A stretch of DNA of 31,339 nt from a virus. Each line of letters opens with the position of its first letter. Positions within the stretch are counted from its first letter, which is position 1. The stretch covers positions 1 to 31,339 of IMG/VR virus record IMGVR_UViG_3300044302_000022; one strand, 5' to 3'. The position numbers were made by a program, and so were the translations under genes. The notes under the pieces were generated by a model. The model had not been told where the DNA came from and made no database searches. It was given only the letters and a program-made list of their open reading frames with translations. Positions 1,414 to 20,037 of the stretch are shown here, in pieces.

Positions 1414-1949
1414 TGGACCCGTTAACCATAGCCGCTGCAATAGCCGCAACGAAAACACTGGTTAAAAGTGCGCGTGGGGTTCAAGAAATTGTCCACGGGA
1501 TTGATGGCGTCTTCCACGCACAAGACGAGCACGAAAAAAACAAAAGTCACAAACCGGGCAGTTCTATAGGCGAGAAGAATAAATCGATCTTGCAAAAACG
1601 CGCCAAGGATGATGGTGGTGATGACAGCATCAGTTCGGCGGCTGCGGCTGTTATTGAGAAAAAACAATTGGATCAGCAGATTGCTGATTTAAGAGATGAA
1701 ATTAATCGCAAGTGGCCCAGCGCCCCTGGAGAAAAAAGCACCTGGGATCAAATTTTGGCTGAACGCGAAAAGCGCGTCGCAGATAAGAAAGAACGCGCAC
1801 GGCAAGAGAAGATATTAGCTGAAGAACGCGCAGAGAAACGAAAAGCAATTCTGATTGAGGTTGCCAAAGGCTTAGCTGTTGCAGCCATTGCCGGTGGCAT
1901 TGTTTGGTTCCTGTGGTGGGCCGCGACATATGGACCGGCGGTGAGGTAG
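1413..1949 (+). CDS. Coiled-coil protein with C-terminal membrane anchor
   Basis: A 178-residue protein. The N-terminus (MDPLTIAAAIAATKTLVKSARGV) is a mildly hydrophobic or amphipathic helix. Residues about 40-75 are polar and lysine-rich. About 80-145 are a charged coiled coil rich in Glu, Lys and Arg. Residues about 148-172 (VAKGLAVAAIAGGIVWFLWWAA) form one membrane segment close to the C-terminus. I recall proteins starting MDP.TA.AA...K. in marine phages but no assigned function. Its start is coupled to the upstream EF-hand gene through TAATG. A membrane-tethered lysis or assembly factor is possible. Confidence 0.65.
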   Translation: MDPLTIAAAIAATKTLVKSARGVQEIVHGIDGVFHAQDEHEKNKSHKPGSSIGEKNKSILQKRAKDDGGDDSISSAAAAVIEKKQLDQQIADLRDEINRKWPSAPGEKSTWDQILAEREKRVADKKERARQEKILAEERAEKRKAILIEVAKGLAVAAIAGGIVWFLWWAATYGPAVR

Positions 1950-1951
1950 TC

Positions 1952-2308
1952 ATGGAGCTTGGAGCGAGCCACGCGATACAGGGGATTATGGTTCTAGCTA
2001 CCGTGGCCGGTGGTTATGCCGTGGTAAAAAGTAATTTGAGCCGCGTTATGCAGGATCTTGAAGATCATATTAAGAGCGCGGAGGATAACCGGGAAAAGTT
2101 TGACGCTAGGTTGGACAACGCGGAGCAAGAACGCGGAAAAATTGTAAATCAAGTGATGACGCTCAAAGGGATTAACTCCCCGACAGAACTCAAACTTTTG
2201 CATCGAGAACTTGAGGGACTTCAAAAAGATGTACAGTGGCTCACGAAACAGCTAGACCAACTCTCTCACGCTCACAACGGTAAGCATCCACCCGTGGAGA
2301 ACAAATAA
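1952..2308 (+). CDS. N-terminal membrane anchor plus coiled coil (spanin- or XhlA-like architecture)
   Basis: A 118-residue product from ATG 1952, two bases after the previous stop and preceded by a GAGGT element. An upstream in-frame start at 1904 would lie inside the previous gene and is less likely. Residues about 7-27 (HAIQGIMVLATVAGGYAVVK) form one membrane segment. Residues about 28-105 are a long charged coiled coil with few helix breakers before GINSPTEL. This is the topology of an inner-membrane spanin (Rz type) and also of XhlA-type proteins. A lipoprotein is encoded two genes downstream, which fits a separated spanin pair. Assignment is by topology and context; no signature motif is present. 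Confidence 0.6.
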   Translation: MELGASHAIQGIMVLATVAGGYAVVKSNLSRVMQDLEDHIKSAEDNREKFDARLDNAEQERGKIVNQVMTLKGINSPTELKLLHRELEGLQKDVQWLTKQLDQLSHAHNGKHPPVENK

Positions 2309-2490
2309 TGGAACCAAAAGACCTTATAACCGTAGCTCCTGGTGGCGTAGCCGTAGCGGCTTCCTGGCTAGGACTTGTAGAGTCGGGCCTGTCTATATTG
2401 CTACTGCTTGCCAGTTTGGGATTTCTAGCGTGGAGGTGGCGACAAGCAATGAGAGACAAACAAAGCGGTATACTTAATGGAGATGGGTAA
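2308..2490 (+). CDS. Small one-segment membrane protein (holin or antiholin candidate)
   Basis: A 60-residue protein with one strongly hydrophobic segment at about 23-43 (SGLSILLLLASLGFLAW), followed by a short basic stretch (RWRQAMRDK) that suggests a cytoplasmic C-terminus by the positive-inside rule. Both ends are coupled to neighbours by TAATG (2306-2310 and 2488-2492), so it is translated as part of the membrane cassette. Small size, one membrane segment and a position between a spanin-like gene and a lipoprotein suggest an accessory holin or antiholin. This is inference; no family is recognised. Confidence 0.6.
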   Translation: MEPKDLITVAPGGVAVAASWLGLVESGLSILLLLASLGFLAWRWRQAMRDKQSGILNGDG

Positions 2491-2852
2491 TGGTTCCCCG
2501 TGCGGTGGTTCTTCTAACTTTACTGTTACCGGCCTGCCAATCTACTAATTCTTTGTCTACCGTCGAAATACGTCAGCAAGAACATCAGCTTGTTGTGAGT
2601 GAATCATCTATACAGGAAGTTTCATCCGTCCCAAGTTGCGCCAAGAAGGATCTTATGACTAAGTTCTTGGCAAAAACCTTTAACGAAAGGCCTCTTCTCA
2701 AAGGAACTTCGACGGATGGATCTATTCTTACGATTTACGCTGGACCAAATGGGGCGTGGACTCTCACTAAGATCGTTAATGACATTACCTGTATTGTAGC
2801 CGCCGGAACTGACTTGAAGGTTCTGAGGTCGGAGAAAGGACCGGTAATATAA
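2490..2852 (+). CDS. Putative lipoprotein with conserved Cys pair
   Basis: A 120-residue protein with a very short signal peptide and a lipobox-like LLPAC (Cys16; Pro at -2 is atypical). Gln at +2 would favour outer-membrane sorting. The mature part has a Ser/Thr-rich linker followed by a compact domain at about 48-110 with two further cysteines (Cys50, Cys101) likely to form a disulfide, and the pattern GxWTLT....C.VAAG. I recall this pattern from small periplasmic proteins of alphaproteobacteria and their phages, without known function. In this cassette it is a candidate outer-membrane spanin partner for the product of 1952-2308, though longer than a typical Rz1. Both ends are coupled by TAATG. 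Confidence 0.65.
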   Translation: MVPRAVVLLTLLLPACQSTNSLSTVEIRQQEHQLVVSESSIQEVSSVPSCAKKDLMTKFLAKTFNERPLLKGTSTDGSILTIYAGPNGAWTLTKIVNDITCIVAAGTDLKVLRSEKGPVI

Positions 2853-3331
2853 TGATATCCTTGTTAGGCAGTCTTTTAGGTTTCGGAACCTCTATAATCC
2901 CAGAAGTCATAGGCATATTTAAGCAGAAGCAGGCGGACGCGCATCAGATAAAGATGCTTGAGGCGAAAGCCAAGTATGCAGATCAGATATCCAAGCTCAA
3001 AGTTGCAGAATTAGACGCTCAGGCTGAAATTGAAGAGACGAAGGGACTGTATGAGCATGATAAGTCTATTGACGCTGGAGGTTTTATCAACGGGTTGCGC
3101 GGTAGCGTCCGTCCTGTTGTCACTTACCTTTTCCTCTTAGCCTACTTAACGACAAAAGGAGTCATGATCTATGCTATGATTGCCATCCAGGATTTAGATT
3201 GGACGGTAGCCATCGACATGGCTTGGCGTGAAGAAACAGATGGCGTAATATTCAGTGCTATAATTAGTTTTTGGTTTGGAAATCGGGCGATGTCTAAGGC
3301 CCGTGCGTGGCAACAGGACAAGAAGAACTGA
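2852..3331 (+). CDS. 3TM-type holin (Holin_3TMs / GTA holin family)
   Basis: A 159-residue protein. Residues 1-22 are hydrophobic, 24-66 form a charged helix, and about 86-112 (SVRPVVTYLFLLAYLTTKGVM) and 128-146 (ending ISFWFGNRAMSK) are membrane segments. The RPVVTY and FWFGNR motifs are ones I associate with the 3TM holin family (PF11351) of alphaproteobacterial phages and gene transfer agents. Holins make inner-membrane lesions that time lysis and release endolysin. The start is coupled to the lipoprotein stop by TAATG. No endolysin gene is next to it, so the muralytic enzyme must be elsewhere in the genome. Confidence 0.8.
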   Translation: MISLLGSLLGFGTSIIPEVIGIFKQKQADAHQIKMLEAKAKYADQISKLKVAELDAQAEIEETKGLYEHDKSIDAGGFINGLRGSVRPVVTYLFLLAYLTTKGVMIYAMIAIQDLDWTVAIDMAWREETDGVIFSAIISFWFGNRAMSKARAWQQDKKN

Positions 3332-3332
3332 C

Positions 3333-3521
3333 ATGGCGAAATTATGTCCGAGAGGTAAAGCTGCCGCGAAACGTAAGTTTGACGTTTATCCAAGTGCCTA
3401 TGCCAACATGTACGCTAGTGCGGTGTGTAGTGGAAAGGTAACGCCTGGGGGGAAGAAAAAGAAGAAAACCAAGGCGTCGAAAAAGCGTCGTTCTGCGGGG
3501 CCTCGTAGGCGACGACCATGA
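3333..3521 (+). CDS. Small basic protein, AKLCPRGKAAAKRKFDVYPSA family
   Basis: A 62-residue protein from ATG 3333, one base after the holin stop; an in-frame start at 3276 lies inside the holin gene and was not used. The N-terminus contains AKLCPRGKAAAKRKFDVYPSA and YANMYASAVCSGK, a signature I know from many marine phage proteins of unknown function. The C-terminal third is almost all Lys/Arg with Ser, Gly and Pro and looks disordered. Two cysteines flank the folded part. The strong positive charge suggests nucleic-acid binding, perhaps packaged with DNA; that is inference. It overlaps the next gene by ATGA. Confidence 0.7.
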   Translation: MAKLCPRGKAAAKRKFDVYPSAYANMYASAVCSGKVTPGGKKKKKTKASKKRRSAGPRRRRP

Positions 3522-3787
3522 GTTTACGCAAATGGGTCCGTGAGCAGTGGGTGGATATAGGTGCGCCTAAGAAAGACGGTAAGTACCAGCCGTGCGGTAG
3601 GAAAAAGTCCAAGGGCAGTAAACGGAAATACCCAAAATGCGTTCCTATTGCAAAGGCGCGTCAGATGTCTAAGGGCGAAAAGGCCAGCGCGGTAAAGCGC
3701 AAGAGGGCGGTCAGTAACAAAGGACCAAGACCAACGAACGTGGCGACATTCGCTAAAAAGAAATCTGGAAAATCAAAGAGAGGTTAA
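3518..3787 (+). CDS. Small basic protein with WVDIGAPKKDGKYQPCGRKK motif
   Basis: An 89-residue, Lys/Arg-rich protein. Motifs in order are WVREQWVDIGAPKKDG, PCGRKKS, YPKCVPIAKARQM, then EKASAVKRKRA and GPRPTNVATFAKKK. I recall this family (possibly the one named DUF5872) next to the AKLCPRGK family in marine phages. Two cysteines (PCGR and YPKC) could bind metal or form a disulfide. It starts inside the previous gene by a 4-base ATGA overlap, so the two are probably made together. Function is unknown; DNA or RNA binding is plausible from charge. Confidence 0.7.
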   Translation: MSLRKWVREQWVDIGAPKKDGKYQPCGRKKSKGSKRKYPKCVPIAKARQMSKGEKASAVKRKRAVSNKGPRPTNVATFAKKKSGKSKRG

Positions 3788-3789
3788 TT

Positions 3790-3984
3790 ATGGCTAAGAG
3801 AACTAAAGGATATGCAAAAGGTGGCGCGGCCAAGAAGATGATGGGCGGTGGCATGATGCGGAAACGCACGAAGTCTATGGCTAAAGGCGGTGCGGTTAAG
3901 GCCAAGAAGATGATGGGTGGTGGCATGATGCGGAAACGCACGAAGTCTATGGCTAAAGGTGGTGCGGTCAGACGACGGAAGTAG
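3790..3984 (+). CDS. Repeat-built basic Gly/Met-rich protein
   Basis: A 64-residue protein made almost entirely of two copies of a 24-residue unit (AKKMMGGGMMRKRTKSMAKG plus GAV and one residue), preceded by a partial copy (KGYAKGGA). Net charge is strongly positive, with no acidic residues and no cysteines. The unit alternates Lys/Arg clusters with flexible MMGGGMM. I recall similar KGG/MMGGG proteins in pelagic phages, without a role. It starts two bases after the upstream stop, and the next gene follows with no gap. It is likely disordered; polyanion binding is inferred. Confidence 0.65.
   Translation: MAKRTKGYAKGGAAKKMMGGGMMRKRTKSMAKGGAVKAKKMMGGGMMRKRTKSMAKGGAVRRRK
3829..3968 (+). repeat. 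Two 68-base near-identical tandem repeats
   Basis: Copies at 3829-3896 and 3901-3968 (period 72) differ at only two positions, both third-codon C/T changes in glycine codons. They encode the 24-residue units of the small basic protein. Confidence 0.85.
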
Positions 3985-4665
3985 ATGGCCTATTTGATAA
4001 GTAACGTACCGCACTTTAAATGCTGGGTACGCAAAGAATTTACGTGTAATCACACGCAATATCATGGTGAATTTATTCATGCTATGGCTTTTGCCGTAAA
4101 CACCATTCCGGACAGATCCCTGAGTTTTCAGGTTGTGTTTACGGGATGCGAAATAGACTGTGAAGATGGACCTGAAGAGAATGTCCACGGAGGTGCTATG
4201 TGGGCTAGAATGCCCCTTCAAGCTCTTGTTGCAGACATACCTTTGGAAGAATGGCCGGAACCCATGCAAGACCATTTATGCCAACCATGGGATTGTGAGT
4301 CTAGAACACACAGTGTGATAGTAATGGACAGAGTAAGTTCATCCCCCTGGCTTTGTAAGATAGACAATGAGTTCTATCCAGGAAGGTATTTGTTCACTGT
4401 CGATTACACCGATAGCGACATATCGGATGACCCTGCACAACATAAGCAGTCGCATGTTATCTATCTAACAGATGCGGGACCGTGGACCGGTAACATTGTT
4501 GCGTTACCCAACAACAGGGTTCGCGCAACCAGCCCCGCCCTGTGGCGGACCGGTGAAGGAGCCCCAGACTTCATGCCGTCTCAGTGGACGCATTCTGCGG
4601 AATCTCATGAGTCGTACCTAGATCCTGCTATAACTTTCAATAATCTTTACTCTGAGGGTGAGTAG
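3985..4665 (+). CDS. Conserved marine-phage protein of unknown function (MAYLISN.PHFKCWVR family)
   Basis: A 226-residue protein starting directly after the previous stop. It begins MAYLISNVPHFKCWVRKEFT and contains VHGGAMWARMPLQALVAD, QPWDC, SPWLCKIDNEFYPGRYLFT, DISDDPAQHKQSHV and PNNRVRATSPALW. I recognise this as a strongly conserved family in uncultured marine phages, but know of no function or structure. Unlike its neighbours it is not basic: it is rich in Trp, His, Asp and Cys and looks like a compact globular fold. Many conserved His/Cys/Asp residues leave open a metal-binding or enzymatic role; that is speculation. It sits inside the basic protein cluster. Confidence 0.75.
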   Translation: MAYLISNVPHFKCWVRKEFTCNHTQYHGEFIHAMAFAVNTIPDRSLSFQVVFTGCEIDCEDGPEENVHGGAMWARMPLQALVADIPLEEWPEPMQDHLCQPWDCESRTHSVIVMDRVSSSPWLCKIDNEFYPGRYLFTVDYTDSDISDDPAQHKQSHVIYLTDAGPWTGNIVALPNNRVRATSPALWRTGEGAPDFMPSQWTHSAESHESYLDPAITFNNLYSEGE

Positions 4666-4666
4666 A

Positions 4667-4966
4667 ATGGCTAGAAAGAAAGAAAACCCTATACGAAAGA
4701 CCACTAAAGGTAAGGGCGCGAACTACCGGCCTACTAAGTCTGGAGCCGGTATGACTAAAAAAGGCGTCGCGGCATATCGTAGAGCAAATCCGGGTTCAAA
4801 GTTAAAAACGGCGGTTACGGGGAAAGTCAAGAAAGGCAGTGCCGCAGCGAAACGCCGTAAGAGCTATTGCGCCAGATCACTAGGTCAACTCAAGAAATCT
4901 TCTGCTAAGACCAGGAATAACCCAAACTCTCGTATCAGGCAGGCTCGTCGCAGGTGGAAGTGCTAA
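4667..4966 (+). CDS. Basic protein (KENPIRKTTKGKG...RRRWKC family)
   Basis: A 99-residue protein from ATG 4667, chosen over a GTG at 4658 because the ATG lies one base after the upstream stop and has a GAGGGTGAG element before it. It has ENPIRKTTKGKGANYRPTKS, GAGMTKKGVAAYRRANPGS, KLKTAVTGKVKKGS, RRKSYCARSLGQLKK and ends RQARRRWKC. I recall this family (probably DUF6321) from phages; function unknown. Very high Lys/Arg content with conserved Gly and Ser suggests nucleic-acid contact. The terminal cysteine resembles that of the protein at 911-1087. Its stop and the next start share one base (TAATG). Confidence 0.7.
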   Translation: MARKKENPIRKTTKGKGANYRPTKSGAGMTKKGVAAYRRANPGSKLKTAVTGKVKKGSAAAKRRKSYCARSLGQLKKSSAKTRNNPNSRIRQARRRWKC

Positions 4967-5154
4967 TGGACGGAGTTCTTTTAGCTGAACATTTGTTCAA
5001 GGTCATTCAAGAAAGGCGCTCAAGGGTTTCTGAAATGATGACTGATGGTGTGGTCAAGGATTTCTACGAGTACAAACAACTTGTTGGCAACGTAGAATCT
5101 TTAGATTATATAGGTCAGGAGTTGAGAGAAATCCTAGAAAAGGCGGATTCATGA
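4966..5154 (+). CDS. Small helical protein of unknown function
   Basis: A 62-residue protein from ATG 4966, taken because it forms a TAATG junction with the previous stop; an in-frame GTG at 4954 is inside the upstream gene. It is predicted all-helical (LLAEHLFKVIQERRSRVSEMM, then YEYKQLVGNVESLDYIGQEL). Similar small helical proteins occur between basic proteins and GroES-like genes in related phages, as far as I recall. No motif suggests function. It overlaps the co-chaperonin gene by ATGA. Confidence 0.6.
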   Translation: MDGVLLAEHLFKVIQERRSRVSEMMTDGVVKDFYEYKQLVGNVESLDYIGQELREILEKADS

Positions 5155-5588
5155 TGGAAAAATCTGAGATTACCGACAACTTGGTCTCTTTGAGTGATGC
5201 TTACGTTAACATTGAAGAAAAGGTTCTTGATCCGGAAAAGATAGACAGGAGCGTTTTAGATAGGATGCCCTCCCCTACCGGGTGGCGTCTTCTTATTCTT
5301 CCCTACAGAGGAAAGGGGAAGACCGAGGGTGGGATCTATCTTCCAGACGCCGTAGTGGACCGAGAGGCGGTGGCTACGGTATGCGGTTTTGTTCTGAGAA
5401 CAGGGCCTTTGGCCTATGATGACAAATCTAAATTTCCAAGTGGAGCGTGGTGTAAAGAAAAAGACTGGGTTCTGTTTGGCCGGTATGCGGGTTCTCGTTT
5501 TAAGATAGACGGTGGCGAGGTTCGTATTCTTAACGACGATGAAGTAATCGCTGTAATACAGGATCCTGAAGACATCCTGCACATTTAG
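5151..5588 (+). CDS. GroES-like co-chaperonin (Cpn10)
   Basis: A 145-residue protein. Residues 40-145 follow GroES: MPSPTGWRLLILP as the first strand, GGIYLP at 60-65 matching the mobile-loop motif that docks onto GroEL, then VCGFVLRTGP, WVLFGRYAGSRFKIDGGEVR and LNDDEVIAVI matching the conserved C-terminal core. About 38 N-terminal residues are extra relative to the roughly 97-residue bacterial protein. By analogy with phage T4 Gp31, it probably caps the host GroEL so that the capsid protein can fold; scaffold and capsid genes follow directly. The start is ATG 5151 or 5154. A long insert between GFVLRTGP and WVLFGR replaces part of the usual roof region. Confidence 0.85.
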   Translation: MMEKSEITDNLVSLSDAYVNIEEKVLDPEKIDRSVLDRMPSPTGWRLLILPYRGKGKTEGGIYLPDAVVDREAVATVCGFVLRTGPLAYDDKSKFPSGAWCKEKDWVLFGRYAGSRFKIDGGEVRILNDDEVIAVIQDPEDILHI

Positions 5589-5597
5589 GAGAAGACA

Positions 5598-6473
5598 ATG
5601 GCCGAGAGTAATGAAGACCTTATCGTGGATATTCCTAACGAAGGGGAAGAGGTCACGGTAGAACTGGAGGAAGCCCCTTCCGAGGAACTCCAGGCGAATC
5701 AAGAAGATTCAGAAGAGCATGAAGTTTATAGCAAGAAGGTAAAGAAGCGGATTGATAAGCTCACGCACAAAGTTCGCGAAGCGGAGCGCCAGCAGAAAGC
5801 CGCCATAGACTATGCACAGAACATTCAGGCAGAGAACGCGCAACTCAAAAGCCGCGTTCAGAGTTTGGATAAGGGTTACGTCGAAGAGTACGGAGACCGA
5901 ATTGCAACTCAGGCAGAGTCCATAGAGAAGGACTTAGAGACCGCAATTGCTACCAACGACACATCCGCACAGGTTGAGTTGAACAAGAAGTTAGCGCGTC
6001 TTGCTATTGAAGAAGAGCGCGTTGCAGCGGCCAAGCAGCAACAGGCCCAGTATCAACAACCGCAGCAGGCGGCTTCTCCTCAACCCGCTTCAGTTCCCAA
6101 TCGCCCTGATCCTAAAGCTGAAGCTTGGGCGGAAAGAAACGAATGGTTTGGAAGTGACGAGGCCATGACTTTTGCGGCTTTTGGAATTCACAAGAAGATT
6201 GTGGAGGAAGAAGGCTTTGACACGGAGTCTCCAGAGTACTACTCTGAACTAGACAGGAGGATAAAAGAAGCCTTCCCACATAAGTTTAGTGGAAGCTCTG
6301 GTTCCTCTTCAGATACGCGAAGGCCCCAACAGGCTGTAGCATCTGCCACTCGTTCCAGTAGCACTGGACGCAAAACCCAAGTGAGGTTAACTCCTAGCGA
6401 AGTTACAATCGCTAATAAGTTGGGAGTTCCTCTAAATGAGTACGCGAAACACAAAACGCTAGGAGCAGGATGA
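5598..6473 (+). CDS. Head scaffolding protein
   Basis: A 291-residue protein. The first 45 residues are strongly acidic, 44 to about 160 are a long coiled coil, about 160-185 are a Gln/Pro/Ala linker, and the remainder contains NEWFGSDEAMTFAAFGIHKK, SPEYYSELDRRIKEAF and a basic Ser/Thr/Arg tail. This acidic-coil-basic arrangement is typical of scaffolds, where the basic end binds capsid protein and the protein leaves or is degraded before packaging. AGGAG ten bases before the ATG is a good ribosome site. It lies between the co-chaperonin and capsid genes. Family similarity is remembered, not searched. Confidence 0.75.
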   Translation: MAESNEDLIVDIPNEGEEVTVELEEAPSEELQANQEDSEEHEVYSKKVKKRIDKLTHKVREAERQQKAAIDYAQNIQAENAQLKSRVQSLDKGYVEEYGDRIATQAESIEKDLETAIATNDTSAQVELNKKLARLAIEEERVAAAKQQQAQYQQPQQAASPQPASVPNRPDPKAEAWAERNEWFGSDEAMTFAAFGIHKKIVEEEGFDTESPEYYSELDRRIKEAFPHKFSGSSGSSSDTRRPQQAVASATRSSSTGRKTQVRLTPSEVTIANKLGVPLNEYAKHKTLGAG

Positions 6474-9695: not shown

Positions 9696-10586
9696 ATGGC
9701 GGTTTCCGGATCCAAGGACTTTGAACCGAATGTAGCAGAGTACATAGAGGAAGCCTTTGAAAGGTGTGGAATAGAGTTCCGCACCGGGTACGATGCGAAG
9801 ACCGCCAGAAGGTCTTTGAACCTGCTATTTGCCGATTGGGCCAATCGCGGTCTAAATAGGTGGACCATAAAGCAGGTAAGTCAGACGGTTGCTTCCGGGA
9901 TAACTGATTATCCGGTAGGATCCATAACAATGTCCGTCTCTGCGAGTGGAAGTTTTTCTATCGCGGAAACTATTACGGGTGGCACCAGCGGGGCTACCGC
10001 CTCTATTATTACTAAACCTACCTCAACTTCTTTGACATTAACCGTTCCGGTGGGCGTATTCTCGTCAGGTGAGACCATTACGGGTGGCACTAGTGGAGCA
10101 TCAACATCTACTACTTCTACGGCATCTCTTGAAGACGCTCAGTCCACCGTAGACATTCTATCTGGGGTAGTTCGGCGCAGTGATTCGGATATATCTATAA
10201 CAAGGGTTAGTCGAGACGACTATCTGACCATTGCAAACAAATCTACTACCGGAAGGCCCACACAGTTTTATGTAGACCGTCAAATAACGCCTATAGTCAA
10301 GATATGGCCCGCTCCGGAGAATAGCACCGACATATTTATCTATGACCGACTGGTTCGCATAGACGATGCGGATGCTTCTGTGAATACCCTGGACATACCT
10401 TTTAGGTTTTATCCCTGCCTCACTGCCGGTCTCGCGTACTACATGTCCTTGAAAAGAGCCCCGGATAGAATTCAAATTTTGAAAGGGCTGTACGAGGAAG
10501 AGTTCCAGCGGGCCGCAGACGAGGACCGAGATAAAGCTAATATTAACCTTGTTCCTTCTTATACCTTTGTAAGTGCGGTATCCTGA
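9696..10586 (+). CDS. Head-tail adaptor (P22 gp4 / T7 gp11-like) with beta-repeat insert
   Basis: A 296-residue protein. The N-terminal part (VAEYIEEAFERCGIEFRTGY, then ARRSLNLLFADWANRGLNRWT) and the C-terminal part (GRPTQFYVDRQITPIVKIWPAP, NTLDIPFRFYPCLTAGLAYYM) match the helical adaptor or tubular-A type family that binds the portal in podoviruses, as I remember it. Between them, about residues 76-148 are a Ser/Thr/Gly-rich insert with the repeat ETITGGTSGA at 91-100 and, as GETITGGTSGA, at 125-135. Homologues I recall go straight from the first strand pair to the DISI region. Its stop overlaps the next start as TGATG. Confidence 0.75.
   Translation: MAVSGSKDFEPNVAEYIEEAFERCGIEFRTGYDAKTARRSLNLLFADWANRGLNRWTIKQVSQTVASGITDYPVGSITMSVSASGSFSIAETITGGTSGATASIITKPTSTSLTLTVPVGVFSSGETITGGTSGASTSTTSTASLEDAQSTVDILSGVVRRSDSDISITRVSRDDYLTIANKSTTGRPTQFYVDRQITPIVKIWPAPENSTDIFIYDRLVRIDDADASVNTLDIPFRFYPCLTAGLAYYMSLKRAPDRIQILKGLYEEEFQRAADEDRDKANINLVPSYTFVSAVS
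9966..10100 (+). repeat. ETITGGTSGA repeat insert in adaptor gene
   Basis: Two copies of the 10-residue motif lie 105 bases apart (codons from 9966 and 10071), within a Thr/Ser-rich segment. The DNA copies share ATTACGGGTGGCAC but differ at other synonymous sites. Confidence 0.7.
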
Positions 10587-11089
10587 TGTCTAGATACGCA
10601 TCTAATAAGTACGCCATGGGCATATCGGACCGTTCTGGTTTTGCATATAAGTTGAGAGATATGCGGAAAGAGTGGACTGGAATGCTTGTTGGTAAGGACG
10701 AGTTTGAGGCTAAGCAACCACAATTGGAGGTGGTCCGGTCTCCGGCAGATCCACAAGCTTTGAGGGACGCCCGACCCGATAGAACAGAGCCCGCCGTGAC
10801 TGTTCTATTAAAGTTCGATCCGTTCAAATCGGCAGGTAGCGGAACCTCAACGATTACAGTCACAGAGGTTAGTCATGGTCGCTCAACAGGGGACACAGTT
10901 AGGTTTCGTTCCGTAGAGGCTTTTGACGGATTTACTTCATCCAACATACAATCGGCATCCGGCTATTCGATTACGAAAGTAAGTGATGACACGTACACAT
11001 TTTCTGCGGGTAGTGAGACAGCGACATCCGGTAATACGACGGGTGGAGGTGGAACTGCATCTGCCGGTCCTGTTACAGTGAGTGCATGA
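10586..11089 (+). CDS. Neck-region protein with C-terminal FCCH-like beta module
   Basis: A 167-residue protein of two parts. Residues 1-70 are conserved-looking and basic: MGISDRSGFAYKLRDMRKEW, TGMLVGKDEFEAKQPQLE, PADPQALRDARPDR. From about residue 84 comes a Thr/Ser/Gly-rich beta module: TITVTEVSHGRSTGDTVRF, then YSITKVSDDTYTF and TSGNTTGGGGTASA. The module matches one in the protein at 17752-20037. Such modules are often labelled ubiquitin-activating E1 FCCH-like in phage annotation, which says nothing about ubiquitin here. I recall the N-terminal part from marine podoviruses, always between adaptor genes. The start overlaps the upstream stop (TGATG). Confidence 0.65.
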   Translation: MSRYASNKYAMGISDRSGFAYKLRDMRKEWTGMLVGKDEFEAKQPQLEVVRSPADPQALRDARPDRTEPAVTVLLKFDPFKSAGSGTSTITVTEVSHGRSTGDTVRFRSVEAFDGFTSSNIQSASGYSITKVSDDTYTFSAGSETATSGNTTGGGGTASAGPVTVSA

Positions 11090-11090
11090 C

Positions 11091-11735
11091 ATGGCTTATA
11101 CCTTTACTACGTTAAAGACAGCGATACAGGACTATACACAAAACACCGAAACGACTTTTGTTAGTCAATTGTCTCGGTTCATTCTGAACGCGGAAGAACG
11201 CATTCTGAAAGAAGCGCAACTAGACGTGTTTAGAAAAAATTCCTCGGGGTCAACGACTGCGGGAAATAAATACTTGTCGAAACCCTCCGACTTCCTTTCT
11301 CAGAACTCTTTAAGTGTGGTCAGCAGTTCCGAAAACAAGTTCTTGTTGTATAAGCAAGTTACGATGCTTCAAGATTTTACTCCAAATCCCGCAACCACGG
11401 GGACGCCGGTGTATTATGCCGATTGGGACAGTGACAGCTTTCTATTAGCTCCTACACCGGATCAAGTCTACACGGTGGAGCTTCATTACTTCTACCGCCC
11501 GACATCTATAACAACAGCCACAAGTGGAACCAGTTACCTTGGTGACAACGCTGAGTTGGCTCTTCTTTATGGCAGCTTGGTAGAGGCTTACACTTTTATG
11601 AAGGGTGAGGCGGATCTCCTTCAACTTTATAACAACAGGTTTCAAGAGTCGTTGCAGTGGGTGAAAAATTTGGGCGAGGGACTTCAGACCAGGGATCAGT
11701 ATCGGTATGATCGTCTACGGCGGGATGTTCAGTAA
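11091..11735 (+). CDS. Phage adaptor protein (neck)
   Basis: A 214-residue product from ATG 11091, one base after the previous stop; an in-frame GTG at 11082 overlaps that gene and is less likely. It begins MAYTFTTLKTAIQDYTQNTE, with a helix FVSQLSRFILNAEERILKEA, then YLSKPSDFLSQNSLSVV, GTPVYYADWDSDSFLLAPTPD, VELHYFYRPTSI and NAELALLYGSLVEAYTFMKG. I recognise this as the family usually named phage adaptor protein (DUF6682-like) in marine phages. It probably forms a ring below the portal adaptor. Its stop shares a base with the next start (TAATG). Confidence 0.7.
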   Translation: MAYTFTTLKTAIQDYTQNTETTFVSQLSRFILNAEERILKEAQLDVFRKNSSGSTTAGNKYLSKPSDFLSQNSLSVVSSSENKFLLYKQVTMLQDFTPNPATTGTPVYYADWDSDSFLLAPTPDQVYTVELHYFYRPTSITTATSGTSYLGDNAELALLYGSLVEAYTFMKGEADLLQLYNNRFQESLQWVKNLGEGLQTRDQYRYDRLRRDVQ

Positions 11736-17751: not shown

Positions 17752-20037
17752 ATGCCGTTAACCAAAGTCGCATTTAACCCTGGAGTTAATAAAGAATCCA
17801 CCTCCTACGCGGCGGAGAACGGATGGTTTGACTCTAATCTTATCCGTTTTCGCAAGGGACGAGCGGAGAAGATGGGGGGCTGGAGTAAAATAAGCTCAAA
17901 TTCTGTGCAAGGAACTACTAGGTCTCTTCACGTATTTTCTGCCTTAGATGCTTCTAAGTTAATGGGCGTTGGCACCGAAGAAAAGTTCTATATTGAAGAG
18001 GGCGGAACGTTTAACGACATAACGCCTCTAAGACGGACCCAAACTCTGGGCTCAAACCCTATTACAACAGGATCTTCCGGAAGTGCCGTAATCACGTTTA
18101 CGGACGTTAACCATGGAGCGCGGACCGGTGATTTCGTTACAATATCCGGAGCGACGACAACGGATGGCGTGACTGCGGCTCAGATAAACCTTGAGTTTGA
18201 AATTACGGTCATTAATTCAAACACCTTTACCGTGACTACGACGGGAAGCGCGTCTTCTGGAAGCACCGCAGGAGGAGGTTCCGCTGTTGTTGCGGCCTAT
18301 CAAATCAGCGCGGGTCTCGGGGTAGTTGTTCCAGGAACTGGGTGGGGAGCCGGTTTGTGGGGGGGCTATAGCAGTTCTTTCTCTGAGACAACGCTTGATG
18401 GCGCGATTAACAACTCAGTCACGTCTTTAGCCCTGACATCCGCGTCAGACTTTGAGGCTGTGTCTACTACGTTGTCGGCCAACATAACGGACGTTAGTAC
18501 GTCAATACCCCTATCGAATTCGTCGTCGTTTGCTTCCAAAGGGACTATTCTAGTCGGTAGTGAGAAAATTGAGTACGGTAACAATAATTCTAATGTTCTT
18601 TCCGATCTTACACGGGGCGCAGATGGGACGACTGCGGCAGCGGCTAGTAGTGGTGCGAGTGTAACCTTTGTCGGGATTATGCTGATAGACGACGAACTCA
18701 TTCAATACACTGGCAAAAGCACTAACACCATAGACGCGGGCGTGGTTAGAGGAGTTCGTGGCACAACGGCAGCGGCTCATGATGATGACGTTGCGGTTAA
18801 AGAAGCAAACGCTTTTGTAGGCTGGGGAGAGGCTGCAAACATAACTACCTCCGCTGGTTCCAACATTCGCCTTTGGTCTCAAGACAATTGGGGCGAAGAC
18901 CTCACCTTTAACGCTTTCGATGGAACGCCGTATTATTGGGATAAAACATTGGGTCTAACAGCTAGGGCCGTTTCTCTGGCGGATTCTTCGGGTGCCGTTA
19001 GTGCGCCTACAGTAGTGCGGCGTATGATGCTTTCAGGATCCGATAGGCATCTGGTATGTTTTGGGGCTAATCCGATAGGCGATACGAACCAGGACCTGTT
19101 GATGGTCCGGTGGAGTGATCAGGAAAATCCTTTTGACTGGTTTCCTACTGCAACAAACACAGCAGGTTCTCAAAGAATATCTTCTGGGTCTGAGATACTT
19201 ACCGCGCACAGAACCCGCCAGGAGGTACTGATTTGGACGGATGCCTCTTTACATGCGATGCGTTTTACGGGACCTCCGTACACGTTTACGTTTAGTCTTC
19301 TTGCCGACAACATTTCTATTATAGGTCCGAATGCCGCCGTTGCCTCTGGGGACCGTGCTTTCTGGATGGGGCGCAATAATTTCTATGCATATAGCGGACG
19401 TACTCAGGTCATACCATGCACGGTTCTGGAACACGTATTTTCTGATATAAATTTGGCTCAAGACTTTAAGTTTTTTGCCGCTTCCAACAAGCTTTTCGAT
19501 GAGATTTTTTGGTTCTATGCATCCGCTAGTTCAGACGAGATAGACCGATACGTTAAGTTTAATCACGTAGAGGGCGCGTGGGACATTGGAACGTTGGTAC
19601 GAACGGCGTGGGTAGATTCTGGAGCGCACGATAATCCAAGAGCCGGGGGCGCTTCTGGGGGGACTCAGTACATATACAACCACGAAAGCGGTCAGAACGA
19701 CGACGGCAGCGCAATGTCCTGTTTTATTGAATCCACTGATTTTGATCTTGGTGATGGTGAGCAGTTTATGTTTGTAGACAAGCTCATCCCGGATCTTCGC
19801 ATTAATGATACCAGCAGCGACAGTTCTGGTTCTGTAAACTACTTGGTAAAAACGCGGGACTTTCCCTTAGATTCTTTACAGACGCAATCTACAAGTAATG
19901 TTACAAACAGTACGCAACAGTCTTTTATTAGAGCCAGAGGGCGGCAAGCCGTGGTCCGTGTAGAGAGTTCCTCGCTGGATATAAACTGGACGCTGGGTGA
20001 TCTACGTATGAACATCCGTCCGGACGGGAGGCGCTGA
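17752..20037 (+). CDS. Tail stopper / DNA-stabilisation protein with inserted beta modules
   Basis: A 761-residue protein. It begins MPLTKVAFNPGVNKESTSYA with ENGWFDSNLIRFRKGRAEKMG, YIEEGGTFNDITPLR, and from about residue 370 carries a beta-rich body (NIRLWSQDNWGEDLTFN, RMMLSGSDRHLVCFGANP, WSDQENPFDWFP, NNFYAYSGRTQVIPCTVLEH) that I recall from podovirus tubular-B / P22 gp10-like proteins, probably a propeller closing the tail tube. Inserted are an FCCH-like module (about 108-183) and a GAIN..VTSL...LIGSE.I.Y...TRG..GTTAA module that appears nested: half unit 214-237, full unit 239-307, other half 308-350. Its stop overlaps the next start (TGATG). Confidence 0.75.
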   Translation: MPLTKVAFNPGVNKESTSYAAENGWFDSNLIRFRKGRAEKMGGWSKISSNSVQGTTRSLHVFSALDASKLMGVGTEEKFYIEEGGTFNDITPLRRTQTLGSNPITTGSSGSAVITFTDVNHGARTGDFVTISGATTTDGVTAAQINLEFEITVINSNTFTVTTTGSASSGSTAGGGSAVVAAYQISAGLGVVVPGTGWGAGLWGGYSSSFSETTLDGAINNSVTSLALTSASDFEAVSTTLSANITDVSTSIPLSNSSSFASKGTILVGSEKIEYGNNNSNVLSDLTRGADGTTAAAASSGASVTFVGIMLIDDELIQYTGKSTNTIDAGVVRGVRGTTAAAHDDDVAVKEANAFVGWGEAANITTSAGSNIRLWSQDNWGEDLTFNAFDGTPYYWDKTLGLTARAVSLADSSGAVSAPTVVRRMMLSGSDRHLVCFGANPIGDTNQDLLMVRWSDQENPFDWFPTATNTAGSQRISSGSEILTAHRTRQEVLIWTDASLHAMRFTGPPYTFTFSLLADNISIIGPNAAVASGDRAFWMGRNNFYAYSGRTQVIPCTVLEHVFSDINLAQDFKFFAASNKLFDEIFWFYASASSDEIDRYVKFNHVEGAWDIGTLVRTAWVDSGAHDNPRAGGASGGTQYIYNHESGQNDDGSAMSCFIESTDFDLGDGEQFMFVDKLIPDLRINDTSSDSSGSVNYLVKTRDFPLDSLQTQSTSNVTNSTQQSFIRARGRQAVVRVESSSLDINWTLGDLRMNIRPDGRR
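18391..18804 (+). repeat. Nested beta-module repeat in tail stopper gene
   Basis: An N-half (TLDGAINNSVTSLALTSASD) is followed by a full unit (TLSANITDVSTSIPLSNSSS to TRGADGTTAAAASSGASV) and then a C-half (IMLIDDELIQYTGKS to VRGTTAAAHDDDVAV). The order is N-NC-C rather than NC-NC. Confidence 0.65.

Follow-up and report, generated by a model that had tools for sequence, protein, structure and literature searches.

How does a small protein domain come to stand in the middle of another copy of itself? The question is raised by a tail gene of a marine phage in the window, i.e. the whole stretch of DNA analysed (31,339 nucleotides, IMG/VR virus record IMGVR_UViG_3300044302_000022). From the sequence alone an earlier note had described positions 18391-18804 (residues 214-351) as the N-half of a beta module, a complete unit and a C-half, and had offered two origins: either one module landed inside a related one, or a longer array lost its outer halves. 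Here we examined the gene product, the order of the parts, their predicted fold and the homologues.

The gene product is a tail nozzle protein

The protein of 761 aa matched PHROG 3287 over its full length (aa 3-761, E 8.4e-74), and a relative of about 490 aa matched the VP1 'nozzle gp16' (1.1e-7). The full-length AlphaFold2 model (pLDDT 72, pTM 0.56) aligned with the tail chain of Pa223 (Z 20.7), the VP1 nozzle (20.4), SU10 (18.4) and P22 gp10 (17.3); the lead of the nozzles is moderate, as propellers of other proteins reach Z 17.1 against the same model. Because of the PHROG match, the nozzle folds and an SU10-type adaptor gene in the window, we conclude that the protein is a podophage tail nozzle (P22 gp10 / SU10 gp17 / T7 gp12 type). 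The previous label 'tail stopper' should be replaced accordingly. The relevant features are:

11082-11735, plus strand: tail adaptor gene, partner of the nozzle in short-tailed phages (Pfam SU10_adaptor, E 3.5e-23)
17752-20037, plus strand: tail nozzle protein gene
18037-18321, plus strand: small beta domain preceding the modules (aa 96-190), weakly FCCH-like or endosialidase-barrel-like (Pfam E1_FCCH, E 0.00037; End_beta_barrel, E 0.001; both under the curated Pfam cut-off)

A second gene of the window, 9696-10586 (plus strand), also matches SU10_adaptor (E 8.5e-8), and the two are possibly adaptor paralogues. The small beta domain (aa 96-191) has a second copy, 35% identical, at 10799-11098 (plus strand).

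The region from aa about 95 to 373 is missing in the short relatives of about 490 aa. SU10 gp17 has Ig-like insertions between blades 2 and 3 of its propeller (PMC9509320), and by analogy the extra region looks equivalent to them. Within it, a Pfam scan of the protein gave no match over aa 213-351.

One module is split around a complete second module

To avoid circularity, the profile for the search of this stretch was built exclusively from modules which are single and intact in other phages. It recognized three parts:

18388-18465, plus strand: N half of the outer module, aa 213-238 (profile positions 2-25 = aa 213-236, 15.8 bits)
18466-18672, plus strand: complete inner module, aa 239-307 (profile positions 1-68 = aa 238-305, 61.9 bits), a contiguous barrel in the model (range 29-102)
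18673-18804, plus strand: C half of the outer module, aa 308-351 (profile positions 27-70 = aa 308-352, 42.1 bits)

Shuffling the region 1000 times gave at most 9.4 bits. The spliced outer halves aligned with the inner unit with a score of 96 (BLOSUM62, local), against 54 for the best of 2000 shuffles. The C half alone scored 65 (0 of 2000 shuffles as good) and the N half alone 40 (7 of 2000). The outer halves join at profile position 25|27, i.e. the outer module has lost almost no residues and is cut once, in the turn (...SDF | G...) past its second strand. The same order was found in six separate IMG/VR records by module-profile search and in 95 homologues; thus, an assembly artefact is excluded. 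This confirmed the order that had been described: one module is split at one turn and a whole second module lies inside.

DNA alignment between the copies yielded short chance matches only. Therefore, the insertion event must be old. Each of the three parts appears to be kept by selection, because dN was low relative to dS in all of them wherever dS was computable; for the inner module dS was saturated in every pair tested.

The predicted fold consists of two barrels

The fold of aa 208-356 was predicted with AlphaFold2, using 33 nested homologues. The model had a pLDDT of 96.3 and a pTM of 0.88, and the outer halves were predicted as confidently as the inner unit. It was compared with solved barrels by VIA-align, and strand contacts were deduced from the alignment ranges. 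The Z values of about 6-7 lie in the range which the tool terms 'common arrangement' and were used for topology, not for homology. A contiguous N-terminal barrel of F1-ATPase (residues about 24-93) aligned to model residues 29-102, i.e. to the inner unit, over 67 residues. Other entries of this barrel spanned model residues 1-147 with only 64-70 residues aligned (rmsd 2.1-2.8). Lambda gpJ 490-567 aligned both ways, to 29-115 and to 3-149. Since the residues of the inner unit alone make up a complete barrel, the whole-span alignments should use the outer N and C halves. In the model these halves appear to form one split barrel around the complete inner barrel. The prediction matches the packing proposed in the earlier note, and three independent small domains, the arrangement that would have spoken against it, were not seen.

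The halves might also be swapped, so that the first N half pairs with the C half of the inner unit, and the N half of that unit with the last C half. Such swapping has been described for some of the HABAS domains that are inserted recursively in Si3 of RNA polymerase (PMC11515920). We consider this highly improbable here, since residues 29-102 of the model align on their own to a complete solved barrel, which suggests that the inner strands are used internally. In the full-length model the two-barrel unit is flanked by linkers (aa 188-209 and 356-373) with pLDDT below 50.

Homologues carry no, one or nested modules at the same site

Scans of IMG/VR and a phage collection yielded 240 homologues with a length of 480 aa or more. 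N-[NC]-C was present in 95 of them (74 distinct), with identities down to about 46%; one intact module was present in 92, none in 49, and four had two distant modules, counts which follow the seeding of the search and not natural frequencies. Nearly all single modules lie between a GWGAGxWGG-type linker and a conserved F.GWG-type motif, i.e. at the same site. Zero, one and nested modules thus all occur at one position, and a series of the NC-NC-NC type, named beforehand as evidence against nesting, was not seen in this gene family. Adjacent NC-NC was absent among the 240 homologues, as were N-NC and NC-C intermediates.

Because alternative small domains sit at the same site in some relatives, the sequences indicate that the module site of the nozzle is an insertion hotspot. 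A different small domain is found there in L189 and L194 (L numbers are our handles for loci), and in L190, L196, L198 and L205 an apparent second copy of the preceding domain. In L082 and L083 the module is located elsewhere; in L083 (HTVC023P, 3001-5136) it interrupts the preceding small beta domain, away from the usual site. The four proteins counted with two modules (L199, L200, L204 and L210) were considered as tandem repeats and rejected: the second module lies hundreds of residues off in another loop. These second intact NC modules occupy aa about 590-666 in L199, L204 and L210 and aa 658-731 in L200.

A nested fragment of 149 aa gave no match in phage records, i.e. at that sensitivity there was no nested case in the named phage genomes searched. 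Likewise, 81 further viral loci contributed 100 frames with the module, none of them nested. Profile-profile comparison of the module with the nested fragment returned the inner unit alone.

A single insertion is favoured

In a tree of the protein core with the insert removed, 15 sequences of the nested type formed a single supported clade; a further nested one, L185, stood among zero and single types. In the module tree, a short one of 69 columns, every inner module including that of L185 fell into one clade (93/85). The spliced outer modules joined the single modules, and a split (84/95) separated them from the inner modules. When each half was taken alone, the outer halves beat the inner halves on the single-unit profile in 57 of 58 and 56 of 58 sequences; these sequences are related and the counts are not independent. 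Both outer halves were closest to single units of the same site. The best single-unit match was L199 for the inner N half and L248 for the inner C half, with L248 scoring high for both.

Because the outer halves group with single modules, the inner modules form one clade and adjacent NC-NC was not found, these comparisons favour one insertion over loss from an array. Such a loss would start from a tandem NC-NC-NC array and require two deletions, one removing the first module's C half and the other the last module's N half. Tandem modules do exist in another protein, a SAR116 hook protein. Nevertheless, for this nozzle we regard array loss as quite improbable: none of the 240 homologues shows adjacent units, a junction at the single position 25|27 would be rare for two independent deletions, and both outer halves are nearest to single units of the same site.

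Alternatively, N and C halves may have been duplicated separately in place, first N to N-N and afterwards C to C-C, so that no whole module was ever inserted. The module order alone does not discriminate here, and the different best matches of the inner N and C halves would agree with separate origins. However, inner N and C halves share one supported clade, the outer ones group together with single units, and the expected intermediates are lacking among the homologues. This route is extremely unlikely.

The first reading of the earlier note, a module landed inside a related one, is thus best supported, by the series of states at the site, the clade of inner modules, the grouping of outer with single modules and the two predicted barrels. 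L185 is a loose end. Its nested module in a core related to zero and single types needs a cassette transfer, a loss or a second event.

Proposed history and role

Overall, the best explanation, to which we assign a probability of about 0.8, is a nozzle which acquired a single module at this site and later a diverged module in the turn of the first, the outer barrel closing around the inner one. The NC module, a small beta-barrel of about 70 aa, would first have entered behind the 'GWGAGxWGG' linker, within the region inserted in the propeller. Later a second, already diverged module would have entered the turn between the second and third strands of the outer module. The residues of the inner module would form a barrel of their own, around which the N and C halves would close as the outer barrel. 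With its very short joints this would give a compact two-barrel unit, tied to the propeller by two flexible linkers. Afterwards, core lineages may to some extent have exchanged the cassette as a whole. Because of the likeness to SU10 and the flexible linkers, we infer that the two-barrel unit most likely extends the tail tip, as the inserted nozzle domains of SU10 do.

The module in other proteins

PHROGs in which the module occurs carry the annotations baseplate wedge, tail fibre and virion structural protein; it is also present in 'tail tube B' of Skadi pelagiphages. In L335, L337, L338 and L343, which are other proteins, about 15 residues interrupt the module between the third and fourth strands, i.e. 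at a second tolerant turn. A hook-type flagellar protein of about 1555 aa in SAR116 genomes (L252-L256; in L252 at 1619-6283) carries four successive copies; it matches Pfam FlgE_D2 with E 2.5e-16.

Structural matches stronger than those with unrelated barrels were obtained with the tail tips of Chi (8vjh; Z 9.4, rmsd 1.9) and JBD30 (8rk3; Z 9.0, rmsd 2.1, 23% identity). The sequence link to the Chi tail tip was weak (E 0.081). Pfam Rcc01698_C was hit by 5 of 15 modules, at best with E 0.0015; the curated cut-off was not reached and none was clearly accepted.

We would give even odds to the NC barrel being a freely exchanged loop-insertion cassette of marine phage tails, which entered several nozzle loops, other tail proteins, a bacterial flagellar hook protein and, in this clade, its own turn. 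If so, self-nesting would be one visible step in the growth of tail tips by recursive insertion of equal-sized domains.

Comparison with known systems

In the literature searched, which covers few subscription journals, no description of a self-nested domain in a phage nozzle was found. That a domain can be inserted into its own homologue is already known from HABAS domains; hence, this is not a new kind of system. In a survey of ECOD, 65.8% of insertion events link different homology groups, and by subtraction about a third link the same group (PMC13114784). The insert was smaller than the host in 77% of 48,263 pairs (PMC13114784). Host and insert in the nozzle are of equal size (about 70 aa each), which is less usual. 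With no, one or nested modules at a single site, the nozzle proteins constitute an evolutionary series in which a domain takes in a relative and, as predicted, still folds. The nested form is a clear and long-conserved example of protein growth by self-insertion. It also draws attention to a tail module that is widespread in marine phages and had no clear Pfam family in our searches.

Among the closest systems are the single-unit nozzle homologues, e.g. of phage 023Pt_psg01 (L086) and L186. They share family, site and flanking motifs, yet their module is uninterrupted. The tail-tip barrels of Chi and JBD30 and Pfam Rcc01698_C resemble the module in the barrel fold and in a weak sequence link; however, they are not nested and the sequence match is below accepted thresholds. 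Like SU10 gp17, P22 gp10 and T7 gp12, the window protein is a propeller-based tail nozzle with small beta domains inserted in the propeller (PMC9509320). SU10 has four Ig-like domains in series (PMC9509320), whereas in the window protein one of the inserted barrels is nested in a homologue of itself. In the beta' subunit of bacterial RNA polymerase (Si3), HABAS domains are inserted recursively into homologous copies, some of them swapped (PMC11515920). The nozzle agrees with this in the recursive insertion of a small beta domain into a copy of itself: the order is A1-B-A2 with A and B homologous, and in the model both copies are complete folds. HABAS domains belong to an unrelated protein and reach up to nine additional copies with some swapping (PMC11515920), whereas the window protein has one level and no sign of swapping.
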